Shown: piece after piece, positions 1 to 10,796 of the stretch
Position numbering within the stretch: the stretch's first letter is position 1
Layout of the letters: every line of letters begins with the position of its first letter
NCBI GenBank assembly: GCA_003193815.1
Contig: PSPB01000008.1
Location: 1-10,796 of the forward strand
Source: Methanobacteriota archaeon
GTDB lineage: Archaea; Thermoplasmatota; Poseidoniia; MGIII; CG-Epi1
DNA: 10,796 nt
Reading direction: 5' to 3'
Program-made: the position numbers and the translations under genes
Notes under the pieces: model-generated
The model's database searches: none
What the model saw: the letters and a program-made list of their open reading frames with translations, nothing else
What the model was told of the DNA's origin: nothing

Positions 1-3000
1 GCGGCGCCCTCGGTGCCGTCTGGCAGCGCCGCGCGCAGGATGAGTCCCGGCACCGGCCGACCGGCGCGGTCAACGACGGTGCCCTCGATGAAGGTCGTCT
101 GGTTCAGGACGCCCTCGACCGGCGCGACCGTCAGGTGCGTAGTGTGGTAGACCTGCACCAGCTGCCAAGCCGAAGTGGGGAGGAACCAGCCGCTACCGGC
201 GAACTGCACCGTCAGCGTGTTCTGCCCTGCAAGCAGGTCGGTCGGCACCGCGAAGTCGTAGCTGTAGGAACCGTCGCTGCCCGTCGCGAGCGTCGCCACC
301 GGCAGGCCGCCGAAGTAGAACTCGATGTCGCCCTGTAACGTCGCGCCGAGGTCATCGGTGAGGTCGCCGCTGACGTGGAAGCTCTCGCCCACCAGCACCG
401 CGTCGCCCGCCGACAGCGTCAGCTGCGTCGGGCTGACGACGGTAAGCGGATGCGGCGTGCTGCCGGAGAGGTAGTAGTCGCGGCCGCCGAAATTCCAGGT
501 CGCCGTCAGCGGGCCGAGCGGTTGCGACGCCGGCAGCGTCAGGTCTATCGAGACCGTGCCGTCGCCCGCCGTCATCAGCTCGTGCGGGTTGCCGCGCAGC
601 GTGAGCGTCACCATTTCGCCCCCGAGCGGAGCGCCGAGGTCGTCGAGCAGCGTCGCCTCCAGAGTGAATTCGAGCACGCGCTGCACCTCCAGCGGCTCAA
701 GCGCGAAACTGATCGCGGCAACGATGTCGCCGGTTACGGATCCGGTCGAGGGGAGGTAGAAGTAGCTGCCAGCGAAACTGGCGCTGAAAGTGTGTGGGCC
801 GAGCGTCGTCGCTTCCGGAACGGCAAAGCTGAACGGCAGCGCGCCGAACTCGGCCGAGGCGGTCGCGCCAGCCGATTCGCCGTCGAAGCTCCACGCAATC
901 TCCTCGCCCGGCAGCCCCGCGCCGGAGGAGTCGCGCAGCCAGCCGGTGACCGCCGTGGTCGCGTTGCGGAAGCCCTGCTCCCAAGTCAACTCGATAGTCG
1001 TGTAGCGCTGCACCGTGACCATGCCCGAGTCGGAAGTGCCGCGCAGCCAGTTCTGGTCGCTGGTCGCGAGCGTCAGCGTGAAGTTGCCGACCGGTGCGTC
1101 GGGAGGCAGCGCGAAGCTGCCGCTGAACTCGCCGTTCACCACTTCGACGCTTGTGCGCGTAATTCCGTTCCAGAGCACCGCAAGGGTGCGGTCGAGTGGT
1201 TCGTCGAGGTCGCTGCGCACCGTCCCCGAGTAGGTGACGTTGCTGCCCGCCACGACCACCGGCGAGAACGTTTCGAGTGTCGTAATCGCGCGGCCCCAGA
1301 GCGACCACGACTGCTCCAGCTCGGCCGGCATATACCAGCCGAAACCGTCGAAGGAGAGCAGTACCGCGACCTCGCCGACCGGGTGCTCCGCGTCCCCGCA
1401 AGGCCATGCGGGGTCACATGCAATCGCGAAACTGCCGTTGGCGTCGCCCTCGAAGTTGGTCAGGTAATCCTCATTCCAGAACAGGTTCAGCGCCAAGTCC
1501 TCGACTGGCTCGCCGCGGTCGTCATGGAGCGTGCCGTTGAACCAGACCTGCTCGCCGCGCACCAGCTGCTGCTGCTCGAGCGTGATAACCATATCACTCA
1601 CGACGGTGAACGGCGCCGTTGTTTCGGTCGAGTCGTAGTAGGGCGCGGTCGCGTTGTCGAAGAGCGCGCGCACCTCGATCTCGCCGAGCAGTTGCGCGTT
1701 GGGTACCGTAAAGTCGCTCTCGTAGTCACCACTGGCGCCGGTGGTCGCCGCGGGCGGCTGGTTGGGCGCGTCGGGCCAGTCGAAACTGATTTCGATGCCG
1801 GCGACCGGAAGCGAGCCGCTGTCGCGCGCGTCGCCCTCTAGCGCGATAATCTCGCCGCGCCGCACTTCCTGCCCCTCCAGATCGAGGAGCACCGTACGGT
1901 GGAGCCAGATAGTCGTGGAATTGGCGACCGCGGCGTTGGTGCCGTCACGGCCGTAGTCCAGTTCGAGCGCGTGTGCGCCGACACCCAAGTAAGAGGTGTC
2001 GGGCACGTAGGAGAAGGAGAAAACGCCGTCAGCCGCCTCGACGCGCACGAAGACGCCGTCCAGCAACAGACTGAGGCTGCCGGCCAGCGGGGTACCATTG
2101 TCCATTGCGAGGCTGCCGTCGACCTGCACGCTGTCACCAGGGTAGAAATGGCGGCCCGCGACAGCCAGTTCAAGGACTGTCTGCTGCAGGACGTCTACAT
2201 CAGCCGAGGCGGATGAGCTCGCATGGAGTGTGTTGCCGGCATAGCTGGCGCCCCAGCTAGCCGGGCCAAGTGCATGTGTAATCGGAAGCTGGTGTTCGAG
2301 CGCAAAATCACCGTCCGCCTCAGTCGTCGTGCTACCGATAGTTGCACCCTCCCAAAGCAGATTAACCGTCTCATCCGCCAGTGGCTCACCAAGGTGGTCA
2401 ACCAGCCGCCCCTCGAGTGTTACAGGGCCGTTGCGAATCGTGTCGGGCAGCGCGTCCAGCGCAATACTGCTCAGGCCGAGCAGTGTCAGCGTCAGCGAGA
2501 CCCGCTCCTCGGGGAGGGTCGAATTATCGGGGTCGTCGGGGTAGAAAATAACCAGCACCGTGTAGTTGCCGGCCGGCAGATGGATTGGCGCCGTCGCCTC
2601 AAGCGACCAGGTCGTCGCCTGCACTGCGGTGCTGGCGAGCAGATTACCGTCCAACTCCACCGTGATGGTGCCGTTACCGATTGCCGCCTCGATGATAGTG
2701 CCGTTGACCCAGAAGTCGTCGCCAACCGTGACCGTATCAGGGTCGAGCCACGCTTCCAGTTCGACCGAAGATTCCAAGATGCGCAGGTCTGTAGTCTCAA
2801 CCGTAGAGTAGCGATATGTCGAGCCTGTGAACAGCACCTCGATATGGTAGTTATTAGCTGCTGTTGGCTGGCCTGTCTCGGGGACCGTCCAGTTAAAGAC
2901 AAAATTGCCGAATTCATCTGTTCCAGCAGTCCCGACATCACAGCGATATCGCTGCCACCCTCCTGTTGGGTTGCAACGCACAGTGCCTGGCTTCGATCCA

Positions 3001-3460
3001 CCCCAGCTTGGTTCCCAGACCTCAAACTCCAGCGTTTCGCCCGATGCCGCTATTCCGCCGATGTCAAGCAGGCTGCCGGTAACGACCAGCTCCTGCCCCT
3101 TGCCAACTGAGGCTGGTGCATCTACGGTGAGCACGGTATCGGTGGAGACTTCGACATCCTCGGGACCATCGATACCGATAAAACCGCTCTCATAGGAAGC
3201 CGCATAAATTTCGTTCCACCCCGGCAGTGCCGCGAGGAAGCCAGTGGCGTTGAAATCGAAGTCGCCAGTGGCATTGGTAATGCCGGTACCAATCTCGAAC
3301 GCTGGCTCGGCATGGTTCTCGTCCCACATCCCGCCACCGACGCTAAAGCCGTCGATTCGTGTCCCGTTGCGGTCCTCAACATAGCCCCAGAGGCGGAACA
3401 ACTCGCCCTTGTCGGCAGCCGAAGGCGCGACGCCCTCGAGCACGACCGTGACCTGCTCGC
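1..3460 (-). repeat. Array of about 11.5 Ig-like beta-sandwich repeats
   Basis: Each unit follows one pattern: a T-x-L start, G-E/D-x-x-x-x-x-G-x-L-x-D about 20 residues in, a G-x-P-L/V turn, a DG-x-F/Y turn, an F-x-x-P-x-x-x-x-x-G stretch, and a closing strand leading to V-T/S-V. Examples begin at DLTDDLGATLQG, TLHDDRGEPVED and RLVDHLGEPLAD. This is typical of bacterial/archaeal Ig-like repeats in surface stalks. Units are strongly diverged from each other, so the array looks old rather than recently amplified. The last unit is cut by the window edge. Confidence 0.8.
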
Positions 3461-5051
3461 CGGTCATGTTGTCGATATCATTCGGGTCGAACTCGTCGAA
3501 GTTGAACTCATCGCCCCCCTCGTCGCTGTCGGGGCGGTCGAGGGTGGTGCTCGAGCCGGTGCCGCCGAGGTTGATGCGCTTCCAGTGACTGTCAGAGTAG
3601 GTCTGGTTGTCCACGGGCACGTAGACTTCGACGAAGGCGTGCGCCTCGTTCGAGACGTAGCGCGTCGGCAGCCCCAGCACGTTGGCCGTGACGAAGAAGC
3701 CGAAAGAGCGGTGGCGGCAGGCGCCGATGCCGTTGATGCAGATGGACTGGTAGACATCGTAGGGCGGCTCGGGGTCGGGGACGTCGCCGTCGCCCTCGCG
3801 GAAGTTGGAGAAATACCAGGTGAGGTTGGTGACCAGTTTCTCGAGGTTGGTCTCCATCGTGCCGTTCTCGGGCCAGAGCCAGTAGAGCGGCGCGTTGGCC
3901 GGCTCGGTCCCGTTCTTCAATTGCAGGAACTGCTTCACCTTCTCCTCGACCTCGGACTGCCCGGTGATGGGGCGAATCGCCTCCGGGGGCAGGTCGGCGG
4001 TGGTGAGCGTGTCGGGGACGGGGCGGTTGAAGTAGGAACCATTGGTTCCCATGCGGTAGCGCAGGTCGATTGTGGCGCCCTCACTGCCGAGGATGTAGTA
4101 GTTGTCGGCGCCATCCTTGTAGAAGTAGATTTCGAGGCCGGTCAGGTTGGCGTCGTAGTCGATGATATCTGCATCGGGCGAGACCGAGGGAATCGGCGTG
4201 TAGACGTCGGTCGTGACCGTGACGCCCATCCAGAGCCACCCCTCGAAGATATGCGTGTAGTCGGTTGAACCGGTCGGCGCGATTTCGATCTTGGAAGTGT
4301 CATAGACATACATGGTGTAGGGGTCGGTGCTCGAGCTGTCGTAGTAGAGCGCGTCCTGCGCCGACCAGCGCTTGAGCGACATCAGCGCCGGGTCGAAGAT
4401 TTCGTAAATCGTGACGTTGCCGTCGGTGCGCCCGGTATCGGGCTTGGTGCCGGGCGGCTCGCCCGGCTCGATGGGCGGCGGGTCCTCGCCGTCCGGGTCG
4501 CCATCGTCGTCGCTATCCTCGTCGCACGGGTCGGTATCCTCGTTGTACTCGCGCAGGTTGTCCGAGCCGTCATTGTCGGGGTCAGCGTGCTGGTCGCCGA
4601 AGTCCGAGGGGTCGAGGCCGCACTGGTCGTTCTTCTCGGAGTAGTAGTGCTCCCAGCCGTCCGGCATTCCGTCCTGGTCGCTGTCGGCGGTGAAGGGGTC
4701 GGTGTCCCACGCGAACTCCCAGTAGTTGGAGAGCTCGTCACTATCGGGGTCGGCGCCGTCGTCGGTGACGTTACGCGGGTTGAAACCGTAATATATTTCC
4801 CAGCCATCTCCAGCACCGCCTCCGTCGGTATCGGGATTGTTGGGGTTGGTGTTGTTGTTGTACTCCTCGAGGTTGGTGTACATCTCCTCGGCCGAGATTT
4901 TACCGTCACGGTCGGCGTCGTAGCCGTCATTATCGTCGTCCTCGTCACCGTCCGGGTCATTCGGGTTCGAGCCAAAAACCGGCAGCGCCGCCAGCGGCGT
5001 GAGCAGCATCACCAGCGCGACCAGCAAACTCAGCCACTTCTGCCTCTCCAT
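1..5051 (-). CDS. Giant secreted surface protein: TSP3/EF-hand repeats, transglutaminase-like core, Ig-like repeats (3' end outside window)
   Basis: My translation from ATG at 5051 stays open to position 1: 1683 full codons, 5' end complete, C-terminus missing. Residues 1-28 are a signal peptide (MERQK, then a hydrophobic run ending near PVFGS). Residues 30-190 hold calcium loops: an EF-hand-like loop at 45-56 (D45, D47, D49, G50, E56) and TSP3 loops near 74 and 123; the one at 74 is degenerate (DTDGGGAGDGWE). A Pro-rich linker spans about 190-205, followed by about 170 residues I do not recognise. A transglutaminase-like core lies at about 380-510: GACRHRS with Cys445, EAHAFVEVY with His471, and WKRINLGG with Asn494 where Asp is usual. 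From about 531 onward come 11 Ig-like repeats of 90-105 residues and part of a twelfth. Many N-glycosylation sequons are present. Role inferred: exported adhesin or envelope protein; the core could be a crosslinking enzyme, a peptidase or inactive. Confidence 0.9.
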   Translation of the reverse strand, partial: MERQKWLSLLVALVMLLTPLAALPVFGSNPNDPDGDEDDDNDGYDADRDGKISAEEMYTNLEEYNNNTNPNNPDTDGGGAGDGWEIYYGFNPRNVTDDGADPDSDELSNYWEFAWDTDPFTADSDQDGMPDGWEHYYSEKNDQCGLDPSDFGDQHADPDNDGSDNLREYNEDTDPCDEDSDDDGDPDGEDPPPIEPGEPPGTKPDTGRTDGNVTIYEIFDPALMSLKRWSAQDALYYDSSSTDPYTMYVYDTSKIEIAPTGSTDYTHIFEGWLWMGVTVTTDVYTPIPSVSPDADIIDYDANLTGLEIYFYKDGADNYYILGSEGATIDLRYRMGTNGSYFNRPVPDTLTTADLPPEAIRPITGQSEVEEKVKQFLQLKNGTEPANAPLYWLWPENGTMETNLEKLVTNLTWYFSNFREGDGDVPDPEPPYDVYQSICINGIGACRHRSFGFFVTANVLGLPTRYVSNEAHAFVEVYVPVDNQTYSDSHWKRINLGGTGSSTTLDRPDSDEGGDEFNFDEFDPNDIDNMTGEQVTVVLEGVAPSAADKGELFRLWGYVEDRNGTRIDGFSVGGGMWDENHAEPAFEIGTGITNATGDFDFNATGFLAALPGWNEIYAASYESGFIGIDGPEDVEVSTDTVLTVDAPASVGKGQELVVTGSLLDIGGIAASGETLEFEVWEPSWGGSKPGTVRCNPTGGWQRYRCDVGTAGTDEFGNFVFNWTVPETGQPTAANNYHIEVLFTGSTYRYSTVETTDLRILESSVELEAWLDPDTVTVGDDFWVNGTIIEAAIGNGTITVELDGNLLASTAVQATTWSLEATAPIHLPAGNYTVLVIFYPDDPDNSTLPEERVSLTLTLLGLSSIALDALPDTIRNGPVTLEGRLVDHLGEPLADETVNLLWEGATIGSTTTEADGDFALEHQLPITHALGPASWGASYAGNTLHASSSASADVDVLQQTVLELAVAGRHFYPGDSVQVDGSLAMDNGTPLAGSLSLLLDGVFVRVEAADGVFSFSYVPDTSYLGVGAHALELDYGRDGTNAAVANSTTIWLHRTVLLDLEGQEVRRGEIIALEGDARDSGSLPVAGIEISFDWPDAPNQPPAATTGASGDYESDFTVPNAQLLGEIEVRALFDNATAPYYDSTETTAPFTVVSDMVITLEQQQLVRGEQVWFNGTLHDDRGEPVEDLALNLFWNEDYLTNFEGDANGSFAIACDPAWPCGDAEHPVGEVAVLLSFDGFGWYMPAELEQSWSLWGRAITTLETFSPVVVAGSNVTYSGTVRSDLDEPLDRTLAVLWNGITRTSVEVVNGEFSGSFALPPDAPVGNFTLTLATSDQNWLRGTSDSGMVTVQRYTTIELTWEQGFRNATTAVTGWLRDSSGAGLPGEEIAWSFDGESAGATASAEFGALPFSFAVPEATTLGPHTFSASFAGSYFYLPSTGSVTGDIVAAISFALEPLEVQRVLEFTLEATLLDDLGAPLGGEMVTLTLRGNPHELMTAGDGTVSIDLTLPASQPLGPLTATWNFGGRDYYLSGSTPHPLTVVSPTQLTLSAGDAVLVGESFHVSGDLTDDLGATLQGDIEFYFGGLPVATLATGSDGSYSYDFAVPTDLLAGQNTLTVQFAGSGWFLPTSAWQLVQVYHTTHLTVAPVEGVLNQTTFIEGTVVDRAGRPVPGLILRAALPDGTEGA
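4482..4964 (-). repeat. TSP3/EF-hand calcium-loop repeats in the N-terminal part of the giant protein
   Basis: Residues about 30-190 contain units of the same kind as the neighbouring 972-residue protein: DxDxDGxxDGWE loops followed by an Asp-rich stretch and a TNLEEYNNNTNP-type ending. The units are irregular in length compared with the neighbour's 63-residue register. Two cysteines (144 and 176) bracket one unit and could form a disulfide. The shared repeat shows that the two genes are related by duplication or recombination of repeat-coding DNA. Confidence 0.8.
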
Positions 5052-5057
5052 CACGCG

Positions 5058-5062
5058 CACCT
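5058..5062 (-). promoter_or_regulatory. Possible Shine-Dalgarno site of the giant surface protein gene
   Basis: AGGTG lies six bases upstream of ATG 5051 and matches the GGTG core complementary to archaeal 16S rRNA ends. It supports ATG 5051. GTG 5054, immediately before it in frame, is the alternative and would add one residue. Confidence 0.45.
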
Positions 5063-5115: not shown

Positions 5116-8034
5116 TCAATTGTCCGCCTCGTAGCCGTCGCTCATCCCGTCGTCGTCCGAGTCGGCGTCCCACGGGTCGGTCTGCGCCTCTTCCTCGCGC
5201 CAGTTGGGAAAGTCGTGCCAGTTGCCCTCCCAGTCCTCCCAGCCGTCGTCGTCGTAGTCGAGGCCGCCGTCGCTGGCGTCGAGCGGGTCGAAGCCGCGCG
5301 TCTCGTTGGCCGGCTTGTGCTCGTCCCAGTAAACCTCCCAGCCGTCGGTGCAGTTGTCACCGTCGCTGTCGGGCAGCGCCGGGTTGGTGTTGTTGCGGAA
5401 CTCCTCGAGGTTGGTAAATTTCTCCTCGGGCGAGAGCTCGTCGTCGCGGTTAGCGTCGTAGCCGTCGCTGTCGAGGTCGAGAGCCGCGTCAGCCGCGTCG
5501 CCCGGGTCGAGGCCATACCACGCCTCCCAGCCATCGGGCATCCCATCGCCGTCACTGTCGGCTTCCCAAGGGTCGGTGCCGTTGAGGTATTCCTGCAGGT
5601 TGGTAAAACGCTCGTGCGGCTCGAGAGTGCCGTTACGGTCGAAGTCCCAACCGTCGTCATCGGGATCCTCTCCGGCGTCGCTGGCGTCGAACGGGTCGAG
5701 GCCATACGAAATCTCCCAGCCGTCGGGCATCCCGTCTCCGTCGCTGTCGGGATTGGACGGGTCGGTAACGTAGTCGTCATCACCGGCGACGACCTCCTCG
5801 CCATCCTCAATCAGGTCGCCGTCGGTGTCCCGCCCCAGCGGGTTACTGCCGGGAATCGCGTCGGCGGCAATCACGTTCTCGTCGTAGCCTTCGACAAGGG
5901 AATTGTTGAACTCGTGCAGGTTCACCAGCCCGTCGTTATCAGGGTCGTCCCAGGCGTCGCTGTTGTTGAGCGGGTCGAAGCCCCAGTAAACCTCCCAGCC
6001 GTCGGCCATGCCATCGAAATCGCTGTCGCCATTGGTCGGGTCGGTGGAGTTCAGGTACTCCTCGAGGTTGGTGAACAGCTCCCCTTGCTCAAGGCTCAGG
6101 TTCAGGTTGGCATCGTAGCCATCATTATCGCCATCGAGCCAGGCGTCGCCCTCCCAGAGAGGGTCGAGGCCGTACCGGATTTCCCAGCCGTCCGGCATCC
6201 CGTCCATGTCGGTGTCGTTCCAGGTCGGGTCGGTGAAATAGACGAAGATTTCCTCGCCATCGAGGAGTCCGTCGCCGTCGGTATCGTTGAGCAGCGGGGT
6301 GGTCGAGCGGATGCCGTCCACCTCGCTGTAGCCGGTCCCGACACGGGAGTTGTTGTATTCCAGCCGGTTGACGAGGCCGTCGCCATCGGGGTCGGTCAGG
6401 GTGTCGAGCGGATTGTTGGGGTCCAGCCCTTGCTGGTATTCCCAGCCGTCCCACATCCCGTCGCCGTCGGTATCTGCGACCCACGGATGGGTGTCGGCCA
6501 TGAACTCGAGCAGGTTGGTGTGCAACTCGTCGCTCTCGAGGCTGCCGTTCCAGTTGGCGTCGTGGCCGTCCAGGTCGTAGTCGACGCCAGCATCGAACGG
6601 GTCGAGCGGGTTGAGGCCGAACCACACCTCCCAGCCGTCCCACATCCCGTCGCCGTCGGTGTCGTTCAGGTCGGGGTGCGTATCGCTGCTATATTCCTCG
6701 AGGCTGGTGAAAGTCTCGTTGCCCGCCACCTCGCCGTTGCGATTGAAGTCCCAGCCGTCGCCGTCCGTGTCGAGCACCGCATCGAGCGGGTCGAGCGGGT
6801 CGAGGCCATACTGCACTTCCCAGCCGTCCGGAATCCCGTCGTTATCGCTGTCGGGGTTAGTGGGGTCGGTCCCGTTCAGGTATTCCTGCAAATTGGTATA
6901 GTATTCATCCGGCTCGACCGCCTGCGAGCGGTCGTAGTCATGGCCATCGTTGTCGAGGTCGCTGCGCGCGTCGGCAGGGTCGCGCGGGTTGAAGCCATAC
7001 TGCACTTCCCAGCCGTCCGGCATCCCATCGAAATCGGTGTCGTTGAAGGTCGGGTCGGTCAGCCAGGTGCTCAGCTCGGCGAAGTCGCTGAGGCTGTCGC
7101 CGTCGGTATCGTTCAGGTCGGGGCGCGTCGTGTCAATCTCGTCGGCGCGACGCCAGCCGGTATCGAGCAGGCTGTTGTTGTATTCGTAGATATTGGCGAG
7201 GCCGTCGCCGTCAAGGTCGCCCCAGTTGTCGCCGGGGAAGAGCGGGTCGAGGCCGAAAGTGACCTCCCAGCCGTCGGGCATCTCGTCGTTGTCGGTATCG
7301 GCATCGCGCGGGGCGGTGTCGTTCAGGTATTCGGCGAGATTGGTATAGAATTCGGCGAACGAGAGGTCGCCGTTGAAGTCGGCGTCCCAACCGTCGTTGT
7401 CGGCATCCTGCCAGGCGTCGACGCCGCTGGTGGGGTCGAGATACCAGAATGCCTCCCAGCCATCCGGCATCCCGTCGCCATCTGTGTCAGGCTCCCACGG
7501 ACTGGTGCCGTTCTGGAACTCGGCCAGATTTGTGAATTTTTCGGAGTCGGTAATGCTTCCGCCGTAGTCAAAATCGTGGCCGTCGTTATCGAAATCCAGT
7601 TTCGCGTCGCCCTCGAAAAGCGGGTTGAGGCCGTAGAGCGCCTCCCAGCCGTCCGGCATCCCGTCGCGGTCCGAGTCGGGGTCATTGGGGTCGGTCGAGT
7701 TGCCGAGCAGCGATTCCATCTCGAACTCCATCAAGTTGGTGAAATTCTCGGAACTATCGAGCATCCCGTCCCCATTCAGGTCGAAGCCGTCGTGGTCGGT
7801 ATCCCACGCGGCATCCGCGGCGTCGAACGGGTTCAGCTTGTGAATCAGCTCCCACCAGTCGGGCATCCCGTCGTTGTCGCTATCCTTGGTCGGCAGGTGC
7901 GGGTCGTCGGTAGCGCTAGCGGGGTCAATGTGCTGCGACGACTGGAAGCTCACCAGCGGGGAGAACGGCAACGCCGCCAGCAGCATGATTACAACCGCCA
8001 GCACAACGTAGCGCCGGCCACCCGTCTCCGCCAT
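5116..8034 (-). CDS. Secreted 972-residue calcium-loop (TSP3/EF-hand) repeat protein
   Basis: Residues 10-32 form a hydrophobic export signal or N-terminal anchor after MAETGGRR. Residues 51-972 are 17 units, each starting with a D-x-D-x-D-G-x-x-D-G-W-E loop. Most long units carry a second Asp-rich site and, in about half, an EF-hand-like loop (for example DLNGDGMLDSSE in unit 1) before a FTNLxEYxNGTDP ending. The acidic loops match the TSP3 (PF02412-like) calcium-binding style, so the protein is expected to be rigid and calcium-dependent outside the cell. By my count about 23 N-x-S/T sequons occur, many at fixed repeat positions. There is no enzymatic domain and no C-terminal anchor; the last unit stops after its first loop. 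It is followed 64 bases downstream by a giant protein sharing the repeat, suggesting a joint surface role. Start ATG 8034 is chosen because the signal follows at once and a TATA-like tract lies 27 bases upstream. Confidence 0.93.
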   Translation of the reverse strand: MAETGGRRYVVLAVVIMLLAALPFSPLVSFQSSQHIDPASATDDPHLPTKDSDNDGMPDWWELIHKLNPFDAADAAWDTDHDGFDLNGDGMLDSSENFTNLMEFEMESLLGNSTDPNDPDSDRDGMPDGWEALYGLNPLFEGDAKLDFDNDGHDFDYGGSITDSEKFTNLAEFQNGTSPWEPDTDGDGMPDGWEAFWYLDPTSGVDAWQDADNDGWDADFNGDLSFAEFYTNLAEYLNDTAPRDADTDNDEMPDGWEVTFGLDPLFPGDNWGDLDGDGLANIYEYNNSLLDTGWRRADEIDTTRPDLNDTDGDSLSDFAELSTWLTDPTFNDTDFDGMPDGWEVQYGFNPRDPADARSDLDNDGHDYDRSQAVEPDEYYTNLQEYLNGTDPTNPDSDNDGIPDGWEVQYGLDPLDPLDAVLDTDGDGWDFNRNGEVAGNETFTSLEEYSSDTHPDLNDTDGDGMWDGWEVWFGLNPLDPFDAGVDYDLDGHDANWNGSLESDELHTNLLEFMADTHPWVADTDGDGMWDGWEYQQGLDPNNPLDTLTDPDGDGLVNRLEYNNSRVGTGYSEVDGIRSTTPLLNDTDGDGLLDGEEIFVYFTDPTWNDTDMDGMPDGWEIRYGLDPLWEGDAWLDGDNDGYDANLNLSLEQGELFTNLEEYLNSTDPTNGDSDFDGMADGWEVYWGFDPLNNSDAWDDPDNDGLVNLHEFNNSLVEGYDENVIAADAIPGSNPLGRDTDGDLIEDGEEVVAGDDDYVTDPSNPDSDGDGMPDGWEISYGLDPFDASDAGEDPDDDGWDFDRNGTLEPHERFTNLQEYLNGTDPWEADSDGDGMPDGWEAWYGLDPGDAADAALDLDSDGYDANRDDELSPEEKFTNLEEFRNNTNPALPDSDGDNCTDGWEVYWDEHKPANETRGFDPLDASDGGLDYDDDGWEDWEGNWHDFPNWREEEAQTDPWDADSDDDGMSDGYEADN
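5119..7884 (-). repeat. Tandem array of 17 calcium-loop units with a constant 63-residue register
   Basis: Unit starts by residue: 51, 120, 183, 246, 309, 332, 395, 458, 521, 584, 607, 670, 736, 763, 826, 889, 958. Units 2, 3, 4, 6, 7, 8, 9, 11, 14 and 15 are exactly 63 residues (189 bases). Units 5, 10 and 13 are short (23, 23 and 27 residues), with a D-x-x-E form lacking the GWE tryptophan. At DNA level a conserved CCGTCxGGCATCCC core recurs on the plus strand in most units. Confidence 0.92.
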
Positions 8035-8066: not shown

Positions 8067-9155
8067 TCACCCGACAACCAGCAGGTCGCGCGGCAGGCTG
8101 GTGAGGCTGCGGCTGCCATCCTGCGTGATGACCATATCGTCCTCAATCCGGATGCCGCCGAGGGTCGGGATGTAGACGCCCGGCTCGACCGTGAAAGTCA
8201 TCCCGGGCTCGAGCGCGACGGCGGAGTTCTGATTTATATACGGCTCTTCGTGAACTTCGAGCCCCAGCCCGTGGCCGGTGCGGTGGATGAAGAACTTGCC
8301 ATAGCCCGCCTCGGTGAGGGCATCGCGCGCCGCCGCATCCACCTCGCTGGCGGCGACCCCGGGCGCGGCCAATGTGCGCGCCGTCCGCGCGGCGGCGCGC
8401 ACCGCTCCGTGTGCCTCGAGCTGCGGCTGCGTCGGCTCGGCGGCGACCACGAACGTGCGGGTGATGTCCGAAAAATATCCCTCGCAGGTTGCGCCCCAGT
8501 CGACAATCAGCAGGTCGCCCCGCGCCAGCTTCCGGTCGCCCGGAAAGTGGTGCGGGCTAGCACTGTTGGGGCCGCTGGCGATGATGGGGGCGAACGGCAG
8601 TTCCGGCTCGGAGCCCGCCCCGTAGAGCGCCTGCACCAGCGCCGCCGCCAGCTCGCGCTCGCGCATGCCGACGGCAATGGTGGGTTGCACCTCGCGGAAG
8701 GCGGCCTCCGCCAACGCCACGGCGCGCTCCATCTTCACCAGTTCCTCGGCCGACTTGCGCATCCGCAGTTGCGCCAGAATGGCCCCGGCATCAATCCGCT
8801 CGTCGCCGATGCCTGCCTGCGCCAGCAGCTCCAGTTCCATGAAGCGCAGACTGCGCCCTTCGACCCCGAGTCGACCCGGCGGCAGCGCCGCTGCCGCCGC
8901 CTCGAACGCGCTGGCGGGGCCGGTCGCATCGGAGTAAGTCACGATATCGCACTCGAGCGCTTCGGCACGGGAGCGCTCCAGCTCTGGCAGCACCAGCACC
9001 GGCCGCGCCCGCTGCGGGACGACGAGCACCAGCGGCCGCTCGCTGAGGTGGAATTGGAGCCCCGTCAGGTACCGCAGGCTGGGGCCGGGGACCAGCGCCA
9101 GCAACTCGAAACCTGCGTCGATCATCGCTTCGCGCAGCTGCGCAAGTCGTTCCAT
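8067..9155 (-). CDS. M24 family metallopeptidase (Xaa-Pro dipeptidase/aminopeptidase P-like)
   Basis: A complete 362-residue protein of usual length for archaeal and bacterial Xaa-Pro peptidases, which cleave X-Pro bonds during cytosolic peptide turnover using two divalent metal ions. Residues 1-130 form the N-terminal creatinase/prolidase-type domain. Residues about 140-360 form the pita-bread fold. All five metal ligands are visible: Asp219 (IVDWGA), Asp230 (FSDITRT), His295 (RTGHGLGLE), Glu324 (FTVEPGVY) and Glu338 (IRIEDD). His202 (SPHHFPG) and His302 (VHEEP) fit the usual substrate-site histidines. There is no signal peptide, so it is cytoplasmic. Dipeptidase versus aminopeptidase P specificity cannot be decided from sequence. 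ATG 9155 is chosen because the family N-terminus (MERLAQLREAM) starts there and a TATA-like tract lies about 24 bases upstream. It is divergent from the nuclease gene and lies 32 bases before the repeat protein gene. Confidence 0.96.
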   Translation of the reverse strand: MERLAQLREAMIDAGFELLALVPGPSLRYLTGLQFHLSERPLVLVVPQRARPVLVLPELERSRAEALECDIVTYSDATGPASAFEAAAAALPPGRLGVEGRSLRFMELELLAQAGIGDERIDAGAILAQLRMRKSAEELVKMERAVALAEAAFREVQPTIAVGMRERELAAALVQALYGAGSEPELPFAPIIASGPNSASPHHFPGDRKLARGDLLIVDWGATCEGYFSDITRTFVVAAEPTQPQLEAHGAVRAAARTARTLAAPGVAASEVDAAARDALTEAGYGKFFIHRTGHGLGLEVHEEPYINQNSAVALEPGMTFTVEPGVYIPTLGGIRIEDDMVITQDGSRSLTSLPRDLLVVG

Positions 9156-9202: not shown

Positions 9203-9970
9203 ATGGAAGAGAAGGTTTACCGGGAAATTCTCAGGGAACTGGACCGGCATCGCGGCTACGGCGTGCATACCGGTGTCGAGGAAGTCGCCAACAAATTCGA
9301 GCAACCGTACGACGCCGTGCGCGCCATCCGCTCGCAGTTCCTGCAGCGCAAGTCAATCAAGAACCACTACCGCGTCAAGGACCGTGCGCGGAAGCACCTG
9401 CAGCGCTGGAAGTCGGGCGTCTCCATCGGTGACTTGGCGCTCGAGCTGGACTTTCCGCCGGTGCTGCTTGCCAATTTCCTGTTAATGGAGATGCGCCACT
9501 CCAAGAAGCGCACCAAGGAAATGCTGAGGAACCTGAAGCTGGTCAAAGACGAACGACTGCGGAAGGAGCTCGAAGAGGTGACCACACGTGACGAACTCTA
9601 CACCCCCATCTCGCACAACAAACAGGCGGCCGAGGGCAACCGCCGCGAGGACCGGCTGGCGGTGTGGCTCGATGGACTGGAGCTGGAATACTTCACCGAG
9701 AACGACCTGCGGCATGGAACGGTCGAAGGGAAAACTCCGGATTTCCTGCTGCTGAAACCACTCGTGTGGCACGGCGACGAATACCACTGGGTCGAGTCCA
9801 AGGCGAGCTTTGGCGACGACTACATCCACCGCAAGAACCACCGCGGACAGGTCTCGCAATACGTCGAGCTCTACGGCCACGGCATGCTGGTCTACTGGTA
9901 CGGCTACCTGACCAACCTGCAGCGCAAGAACTACGTCATCGTCGACCGGCGCGAGCTGGGCCTCGAATAA
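9203..9970 (+). CDS. CDIN1 (C15orf41)-like PD-(D/E)XK nuclease, TPD-motif family
   Basis: A complete 255-residue protein. The C-terminal half has the signature of the TPD-motif family that includes human CDIN1, the codanin-1-interacting nuclease: GKTPDF at 176-181, HWVESKASFGDD at 195-206 and LVYWYGYL at 229-236. From memory, human CDIN1 has KTPDF, HWIESKASFGDE and VIYWYGF in the same order. Predicted catalytic residues are Asp180, Glu198 and Lys200, with Glu144 and Gln216 as possible helpers. The N-terminal part has two probable helix-turn-helix segments, about 21-50 and 71-98; the second (GDLALELDFPPVLLA) resembles the human region around DLANEVDYAPSLMARL. The domain order and length therefore match CDIN1. 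It is probably a DNA-acting nuclease related to Holliday-junction resolvases, in the cytoplasm; its substrate is unknown. The gene is divergent from the peptidase gene and ends six bases from the convergent dehydrogenase gene. Confidence 0.92.
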   Translation: MEEKVYREILRELDRHRGYGVHTGVEEVANKFEQPYDAVRAIRSQFLQRKSIKNHYRVKDRARKHLQRWKSGVSIGDLALELDFPPVLLANFLLMEMRHSKKRTKEMLRNLKLVKDERLRKELEEVTTRDELYTPISHNKQAAEGNRREDRLAVWLDGLELEYFTENDLRHGTVEGKTPDFLLLKPLVWHGDEYHWVESKASFGDDYIHRKNHRGQVSQYVELYGHGMLVYWYGYLTNLQRKNYVIVDRRELGLE

Positions 9971-9976
9971 GCGGCG

Positions 9977-10796
9977 CTACGGCTGCTGCCCCAGTCGGCG
10001 CGCGATGAACAGGCTCCCACCGAGCAGCAGCAGCGCCAGCGGGTTGAGCAGGACGCGCTCCCAGAGCCAGGCGCCCTCCGCCTGCGGGTCGACCCCACTA
10101 CAGCCCCAGCCGTCGTAATGCTCGAAGGGCGACTCGTAGCAGTGGCTCCCCTCGTAGTAGGCCCAGCCGTAGTTACCGCCGCGCTCGACGACGTTGATTT
10201 CCTCCCACGCGTCCTGCCCCACGTCGCCCAGCCAGAGCTCCCCGGTTTCGGAATCGAAGCTGAACTTCCACGGATTGCGGAAGCCGTAGGCCCAGATTTC
10301 GGGGGCGCCGCCACCGTCAGCGAACGGGTTGTCATCCGGGATTCCATATGGGTCACCCTCGTCGACATCGAGCCGTAGCAGCGACCCCTTCAATGTTTCC
10401 AGGTTTTGCGCGTTGGCGAAGGCGTCGCTGTACTTGCCGCCATCACCGAGCCCCAAATAGAGATAGCCGTCGGGGCCGAATTCCAGGTGGCCGCCGTTGT
10501 GGTTGCGGTAGGGCTGCATCACCTCAAGCAGCACCCTCTCGCTGTCGGTGTCCGCGTGGTCGCGGACGCCGGTGCCGTTGGCGCTGGCGCCGAACTCCGC
10601 CAGTCGTAAGGCACCGTCATCGTGCGTCGTGTAGGCGACGAAAAAGCGGCCGTTCTCTGCAAAGCCGGGGTGGAACGCCAGCCCCAGCAGCCCCTGCTCC
10701 CAGTCGGCATCGTTCACCGTTTCACGGATGTCGAGCAGCAGGCTGGCGTTGCCGCCTTGCGGACAAGTGACGCGGCCGGGCTGCTCGACGACGCAG
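9977..10796 (-). CDS. PQQ-dependent sugar dehydrogenase-like (GSDH/HHIP-type) beta-propeller with C-terminal anchor, 5' end outside window
   Basis: The frame is open past GTG 10717 to the window edge, and the added residues fit the family (VVEQPGRV, SLLLDIRETV), so the true start lies beyond 10796. Conserved blocks in order: EQGLLGLAFHP, NHNGGHLEFGPDG, YLGLGDGG, GFRNPWKFSFD, LWLGDVGQDAWEEINVV and GGNYGWAYYEG. These match soluble glucose/sorbosone dehydrogenase (PF07995) and hedgehog-interacting-like proteins, which use PQQ and calcium to oxidise sugars outside the cytoplasm. The usual blades after the NYGW-EG-HC block are missing. The protein runs through a short Cys-containing stretch to a membrane segment (about NPLALLLLGGSLFIA) followed by RR and the end, so it is likely anchored at the outer face. 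It lies six bases from the convergent nuclease gene. Sugar specificity cannot be read from the sequence. Confidence 0.88.
   Translation of the reverse strand, partial: CVVEQPGRVTCPQGGNASLLLDIRETVNDADWEQGLLGLAFHPGFAENGRFFVAYTTHDDGALRLAEFGASANGTGVRDHADTDSERVLLEVMQPYRNHNGGHLEFGPDGYLYLGLGDGGKYSDAFANAQNLETLKGSLLRLDVDEGDPYGIPDDNPFADGGGAPEIWAYGFRNPWKFSFDSETGELWLGDVGQDAWEEINVVERGGNYGWAYYEGSHCYESPFEHYDGWGCSGVDPQAEGAWLWERVLLNPLALLLLGGSLFIARRLGQQP

Follow-up and report, generated by a model that had tools for sequence, protein, structure and literature searches.

An archaeal member of the TPD/CDIN1 family with an intact predicted nuclease site

CDIN1 (C15orf41), known as an anemia protein, is essential in humans, and the available parts of three papers (PMC7261414, PMC13370696, and PMC11911400) report no demonstrated enzyme activity for it. 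The locus described here raises the question of whether an archaeal relative keeps the makings of a nuclease and, if so, what such an enzyme might cut. The TPD domain has been associated with human C15orf41 (accessible text of PMC6077826). As far as its available text goes, PMC7261414 describes the human protein as inactive on plasmids, on linear, flapped, forked, and four-way DNA, and on RNA; it mutates D196 as an active-site residue and likens the protein to archaeal Hjc, with which it shares an (E/D)-x-K motif and a superfamily. The portion of PMC13370696 that is accessible states that there is no published evidence of CDIN1 nuclease activity, and that of PMC11911400 assigns CDIN1 binding to the MA3 domain of Codanin-1, the complex being represented by a map of only ~6 Å. 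No assayed archaeal TPD member appeared in the open-access literature, as judged by titles and the starts of abstracts among the matches listed.

The window, by which we mean the whole 10,796-nucleotide stretch of contig PSPB01000008.1 that was analyzed, belongs to the genome of a marine archaeon, 0.70 Mb in 100 contigs and 64% complete. It contains an open reading frame of 255 codons on the plus strand, with ATG at 9203 and TAA at 9968-9970 (translation). The first-pass annotation had placed the product in the TPD family, and the PF14811 (TPD) search bore this out: PF14811 was the single Pfam match at E values up to 1 (128.9 bits against a cutoff of 27, residues 116 to 248, E = 1.6e-37). A search of the window's genome with PF14811 returned one match, at 9203-9970 (E = 2.1e-38), and an E value of this size at a single genomic place excludes a chance match. 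Three same-genus genomes carry the protein at 95%, 89%, and 88% identity, with dN/dS values of 0.056, 0.062, and 0.053, respectively; for three more distant pairs, dS was unusable. Ratios of 0.05 to 0.06 in the same-genus pairs indicate a real gene under purifying selection. Close relatives in named records come from the "Euryarchaeota archaeon" isolates NP112 and ARS43 (two records), and a partial protein of 59% identity carries the name Candidatus Poseidoniia archaeon (among the matches listed). The TPD protein had no match among NCBIfam profiles, in PADLOC or PHROGs, or by tblastn among plasmids and phages. Viral contigs searched with the alignment gave five pattern matches, none of them a relative. 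A sequence search of the PDB, with the single protein or with a 44-row profile, returned no relative (listed rows at E = 0.54 or worse), and Rfam and tRNA scans across the window returned nothing. The features of the gene, all on the plus strand, are as follows.

9203..9970, plus strand: TPD/CDIN1-family protein, 255 amino acids plus stop codon (Pfam match, dN/dS)
9275..9379, plus strand: first HTH-like helix pair, residues 25 to 59, helices 25-31 and 36-59 (model)
9425..9490, plus strand: second HTH-like helix pair, residues 75 to 96, helices 75-82 and 86-96 (model)
9548..9946, plus strand: PF14811 TPD domain, residues 116 to 248, which form the PD-(D/E)XK-like core in the model (Pfam, model, fold alignment)
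9647..9649, plus strand: codon of E149, an acidic residue of the first core helix that never varies (44/44 in alignment A1, 82/82 distinct proteins)
9734..9742, plus strand: T178-P179-D180 motif (82/82 distinct proteins)
9794..9802, plus strand: E198-S199-K200 motif (82 distinct proteins)
9848..9862, plus strand: Q216-x3-Y220 motif (82/82 distinct proteins)

The predicted model of the window protein is of high quality by its own measures (mean pLDDT 92.8, pTM 0.87). Its C-terminal core comprises a helix (135-158), three strands (163-165, 181-189, and 192-200), a helix (206-224), and a final strand (227-231). The model thus has the alpha-beta-beta-beta-alpha-beta core of the PD-(D/E)XK superfamily, with the acidic and lysine residues on it. 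In the model, D180 lies directly ahead of the second strand and E198 and K200 lie on the third, which we take to be the placement expected of PD-(D/E)XK enzymes. The TPD and (E/D)-x-K motifs are in register in the window protein (T178-P179-D180 and E198-S-K200), and the residue numbering given earlier for T178, P179, D180, E198, and K200, as well as the ESKASFGD and YWYG blocks, proved correct on translation and alignment. The same annotation had attributed the whole CDIN1 layout to the protein. The TPD, ESKASFGD, and YWYG blocks were indeed found; the two N-terminal HTH-like segments are weakly supported, by helices of the model. HTH families in Pfam gave no match for the window protein, and among 44 relatives hits to four such families were confined to one or two members per family (E = 0.0025 to 0.11). 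The order of a helical N-terminal part followed by a nuclease domain is that described for the human protein in the available text of PMC7261414.

Fold alignment of residues 138 to 255 gave as best scores AF1548 (function unknown, Z = 7.7) and the small subunit of R.BspD6I (Z = 7.4), followed by a Pyrococcus repair endonuclease (7.0), EndoMS (6.8), FokI (6.7), Bax1 (6.5), and Vsr (6.2); every Z is below 8, a range in which the tool warns that a match may reflect merely a common arrangement. The model core thus aligns at modest Z with PD-(D/E)XK DNA nucleases (EndoMS/NucS, Bax1, Vsr, and restriction enzymes). The fold rows also include chains of a non-nuclease, RPB5 (Z up to 5.4). Separately, one TPD protein of the collection (P0146) bears the source name "G:T-mismatch repair DNA endonuclease (very short patch repair protein)," which fits the presence of Vsr among these rows.

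Conservation of the predicted site was examined in two sets. The first, alignment A1, combines the window protein with 43 sequences taken from the best 120 of 171 relatives (44 in all); here none of the residues E149, D180, K200, Q216, and Y220 varies, and position 198 is occupied by E in 41 sequences and by D in 3. The second set comprises 112 TPD loci that encode 82 distinct proteins once exact duplicates are dropped, the window's own included. These loci were collected with the family's own profile, which favors intact motifs in the following counts: E149, T178, P179, D180, Q216, and Y220 are kept in 82/82 proteins, K200 is kept in 81/82 (the remaining one being unreadable), and at position 198 there are 72 proteins with E and 10 with D. 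Of the ten D variants, nine come from families f2 and f3 (our labels; the tenth is from f9). These nine proteins (L014-L020, L066, and L068) are divergent, at 330 to 402 amino acids and with R at position 232; D-A-K replaces E-S-K and the tree branch is long, and the predicted site is nonetheless conserved. Profile match, model, fold alignments, and conservation across the 82 proteins agree with the earlier claim of an intact predicted PD-(D/E)XK site. We conclude, from sequence comparison and the model, that the 255-residue product is a true archaeal member of the TPD/CDIN1 family with an intact predicted nuclease site; family membership, site conservation, the predicted fold, and purifying selection are directly supported by these data.

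The gene is common among the relatives of the window's genome. PF14811 was detected in 50 of 60 relatives searched and in 27 of the 28 good genomes; across 292 genomes drawn from the phylum it occurs in 159, including 92/158 of the good ones. The 21 genomes of the window's own family comprise 13 that carry TPD and eight, 55 to 88% complete, that do not. Among 14 control genomes, only Methanosarcina acetivorans has TPD. One genome (G294) has two TPD matches on different contigs (L088 and L089). Archaeal relatives bear the NCBI label "C15orf41 family protein," and their names include Methanomethylophilaceae, Thermoplasmata, Poseidoniia, Methanofastidiosum, and Micrarchaeota (among the matches listed). 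In a tree of 56 chosen sequences, archaeal or unnamed (LG+G4, midpoint root), the window's family forms a clade with two unnamed proteins (support 99), and these together with f2/f3 form one clade (support 100), which fits vertical descent within the window's class. That class would be Poseidoniia, with the window's family (f1) probably belonging to Marine Group III and the sister families f2 and f3 probably to Marine Group II. The first-pass annotation had argued that the nuclease is older than its eukaryotic partner. The age of the gene within archaea is supported by the 27/28 good genomes, the tree, and the Micrarchaeota and Methanofastidiosum relatives, and its precedence over Codanin-1 had already been published, as had the existence of archaeal members: the available text of PMC7092493 (2020) places C15Orf41 orthologues in Euryarchaeota and traces them to deeper roots than those of Codanin-1. 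The archaeal range found here is wider than in that text, which has orthologues among archaea in Euryarchaeotes only. The link between the archaeal protein and human CDIN1 is drawn through the shared Pfam family and the literature. In line with the first-pass annotation, which saw no Codanin-1, the Codanin-1 profile PF15296 matched in 0/60 genomes; it was equally silent in every control genome, so that absence is not thereby shown. The human protein has Codanin-1 as its partner, whereas we know of no Codanin-1 in archaea.

Further genes of the window, on the minus strand, are listed below.

8067..9155, minus strand: M24 peptidase gene, head-to-head with the TPD gene at 47 bases (Pfam M24)
5116-8034, minus strand: long ORF with TSP3_bac repeats in 10 stretches (Pfam; recurs in 11/11 family loci)
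3-5060, minus strand: long ORF running to the window edge, similar by eye to the TSP3 ORF (recurs in 11/11 family loci)
9977..10717, minus strand: glucose/sorbosone dehydrogenase-like gene, convergent with the TPD gene (Pfam; 6/11 family loci)

All 11 loci examined in the window's family have the head-to-head M24 peptidase with the TSP3-repeat protein behind it, the dehydrogenase-like neighbor is absent from sister genera, and the six f2/f3 loci examined have neither an M24 peptidase nor a TSP3-repeat neighbor. Elsewhere, among the genomes of the phylum sample that carry TPD, a same-strand gene follows it with a spacing of −4 to 72 bases in f30 (8/8), f37 (2/3), f38 (1/1), and f42 (1/1). The two copies tested in Pfam, from f42 and f38, hit PDDEXK_1 and Cas_Cas4. 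A Cas4-like PD-(D/E)XK neighbor shares the TPD strand in 12/13 genomes of these families, and the pair also occurs in one f17 genome (G163, by match coordinates). By a simple hydropathy count, the five Cas4-like copies inspected (L084:4296-5312, L086:8326-9300, L087:9826-10809, L090:9889-10875, and L070:8523-9506) have four or five hydrophobic segments; such a membrane version of the protein looks unusual. A Mut7-C RNase, identified by Pfam runs on two of the neighbors, lies upstream of TPD on the same strand in f11 (5/6 genomes, one weak at E = 3e-9) and f28 (1/1), and the f25 locus tested has a CCA-adding enzyme downstream on the same strand. In f17 (L071, L091, and L103-L106), a gene resembling, by eye, a pyridine-nucleotide disulfide oxidoreductase ends 3 to 8 bases before TPD at 6/6 long-flank loci. 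Neighbors differ between the window's family, f2/f3, and other families, and a single conserved TPD operon was therefore rejected. A Cas4-like partner as a specific TPD signature was rejected as well: the Cas4-like protein is found in 185/292 phylum genomes, including families without TPD and the window's genome (on another contig). We regard the TPD neighbors as hints of nucleic-acid work.

The reading we favor, with our confidence about evenly balanced, is that the protein is a vertically inherited TPD/CDIN1 nuclease that acts without a Codanin-like partner on structured or damaged nucleic acid, cutting DNA more probably than RNA. A helical N-terminal half, probably nucleic-acid-binding, would be joined to the C-terminal PD-(D/E)XK nuclease domain; D180 and E198 would most likely hold a divalent metal beside K200, assisted by E149 and Q216/Y220. 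The parts of this reading that we infer are metal use, catalysis, the choice of DNA as substrate, and action without a partner. Fold alignments to DNA enzymes, the conserved site, and the Cas4-like PD-(D/E)XK neighbor favor a DNA nuclease. The reading is weakened by the inactivity of human CDIN1, by Z scores below 8 and the non-nuclease RPB5 chains among the fold rows, by conservation counts drawn from loci that the family's own profile selected, by Mut7-C RNase neighbors, which point to RNA, and by the frequency of the Cas4-like protein, also where TPD is missing. The hope expressed earlier that a stand-alone protein could reveal the basic DNA or RNA substrate went unrealized, as nothing in this analysis reveals a substrate. 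A histone fold was matched in 22/292 genomes, none of them among the seven that represent the window's family there, an indication that the role of TPD in archaea is independent of histones.

A narrower proposal is that the protein acts as a Holliday-junction or branched-DNA resolvase, substituting where Hjc is missing. Hjc exceeded the cutoff in 0/21 genomes of the window's family, is missing from TPD-bearing genomes of f30 (8/8), f37 (3/3), and f38 (1/1), and was not found at E = 0.001 in the TPD-bearing M. acetivorans control; the likeness to Hjc published for human C15orf41 (motif and superfamily, in the accessible text of PMC7261414) points the same way. At the family level, Hjc is absent from 8/23 TPD-bearing families versus 2/20 without TPD, a trend (p = 0.076) that was hand-counted and carries no phylogenetic correction. 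Against this, the 21 genomes contain three weak sub-cutoff Hjc-like matches (E = 0.13 to 0.27), and Hjc is present at E = 0.001 in 243/292 phylum-sample genomes: 131 have both genes, 28 TPD only, 112 Hjc only, and 21 neither (p = 0.75), on which count TPD/Hjc complementarity was rejected as a general rule. PF01870 (Hjc) was not reported for the TPD protein by Pfam at E values up to 1. When the TPD profile was compared with 18 Hjc proteins, only the ESK-like motif stretch aligned (0.15% probability); the test lacked the sensitivity to settle the matter, since its control, Hjc against the Cas4-like proteins, failed as well. None of the 50 fold rows listed carries the name Hjc, which leaves room for an Hjc-like fold. 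The accessible text of PMC7261414 also has four-way junctions uncut by human CDIN1. Overall, we consider a resolvase very unlikely. Equally improbable, in our judgment, is the larger scenario in which TPD resolves branched recombination intermediates in Hjc-less archaea, in some lineages with the membrane-bound Cas4-like nuclease, and human CDIN1 is a descendant that later came under Codanin-1 control.

Somewhat better placed, though still rather unlikely, is an RNA nuclease that trims or cleaves tRNA, rRNA, or mRNA, a role that CDIN1 would have kept under a CNOT1-like scaffold, Codanin-1. The resemblance of Codanin-1 to CNOT1 (available parts of PMC7092493 and PMC11911400), the same-strand upstream Mut7-C RNase in f11 and f28, and the CCA-adding enzyme in f25 speak for it; the fold rows, however, are mostly DNA nucleases, the genes near TPD in the window encode a peptidase, a dehydrogenase, and a TSP3-repeat protein, and the human protein is without effect on RNA in the accessible text of PMC7261414. 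The protein might instead be no longer, or never have been, a nuclease, but a factor that binds nucleic acid or protein, with the fold serving as its scaffold. Human CDIN1 activity has repeatedly gone undetected (PMC7261414 and PMC13370696, in their available text), and the RPB5 chains show the fold rows to include non-nucleases. Decay would be the expected fate of an idle site, and the fact that 82 proteins retain the acidic residues, the lysine, Q, and Y, with E to D at 198 as the sole change, counts against this explanation, which we consider quite unlikely. The partnerless nuclease acting on structured or damaged nucleic acid is the reading we favor.

What this analysis adds is the contrast of TPD and Hjc counts in the window's family (13/21 versus 0/21) and the Cas4-like and Mut7-C neighbors elsewhere; the neighborhood and Hjc results are leads, not answers. 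If the resolvase reading were true, human CDIN1 would descend from a DNA-junction enzyme, with Codanin-1 control arising later. The Cas4-like and Mut7-C RNase neighbors narrow the candidate substrates, and the compact archaeal form, its predicted site unchanged, offers a cleaner protein for assay than human CDIN1. The archaeal relative may therefore help to find what a CDIN1-family enzyme cuts.
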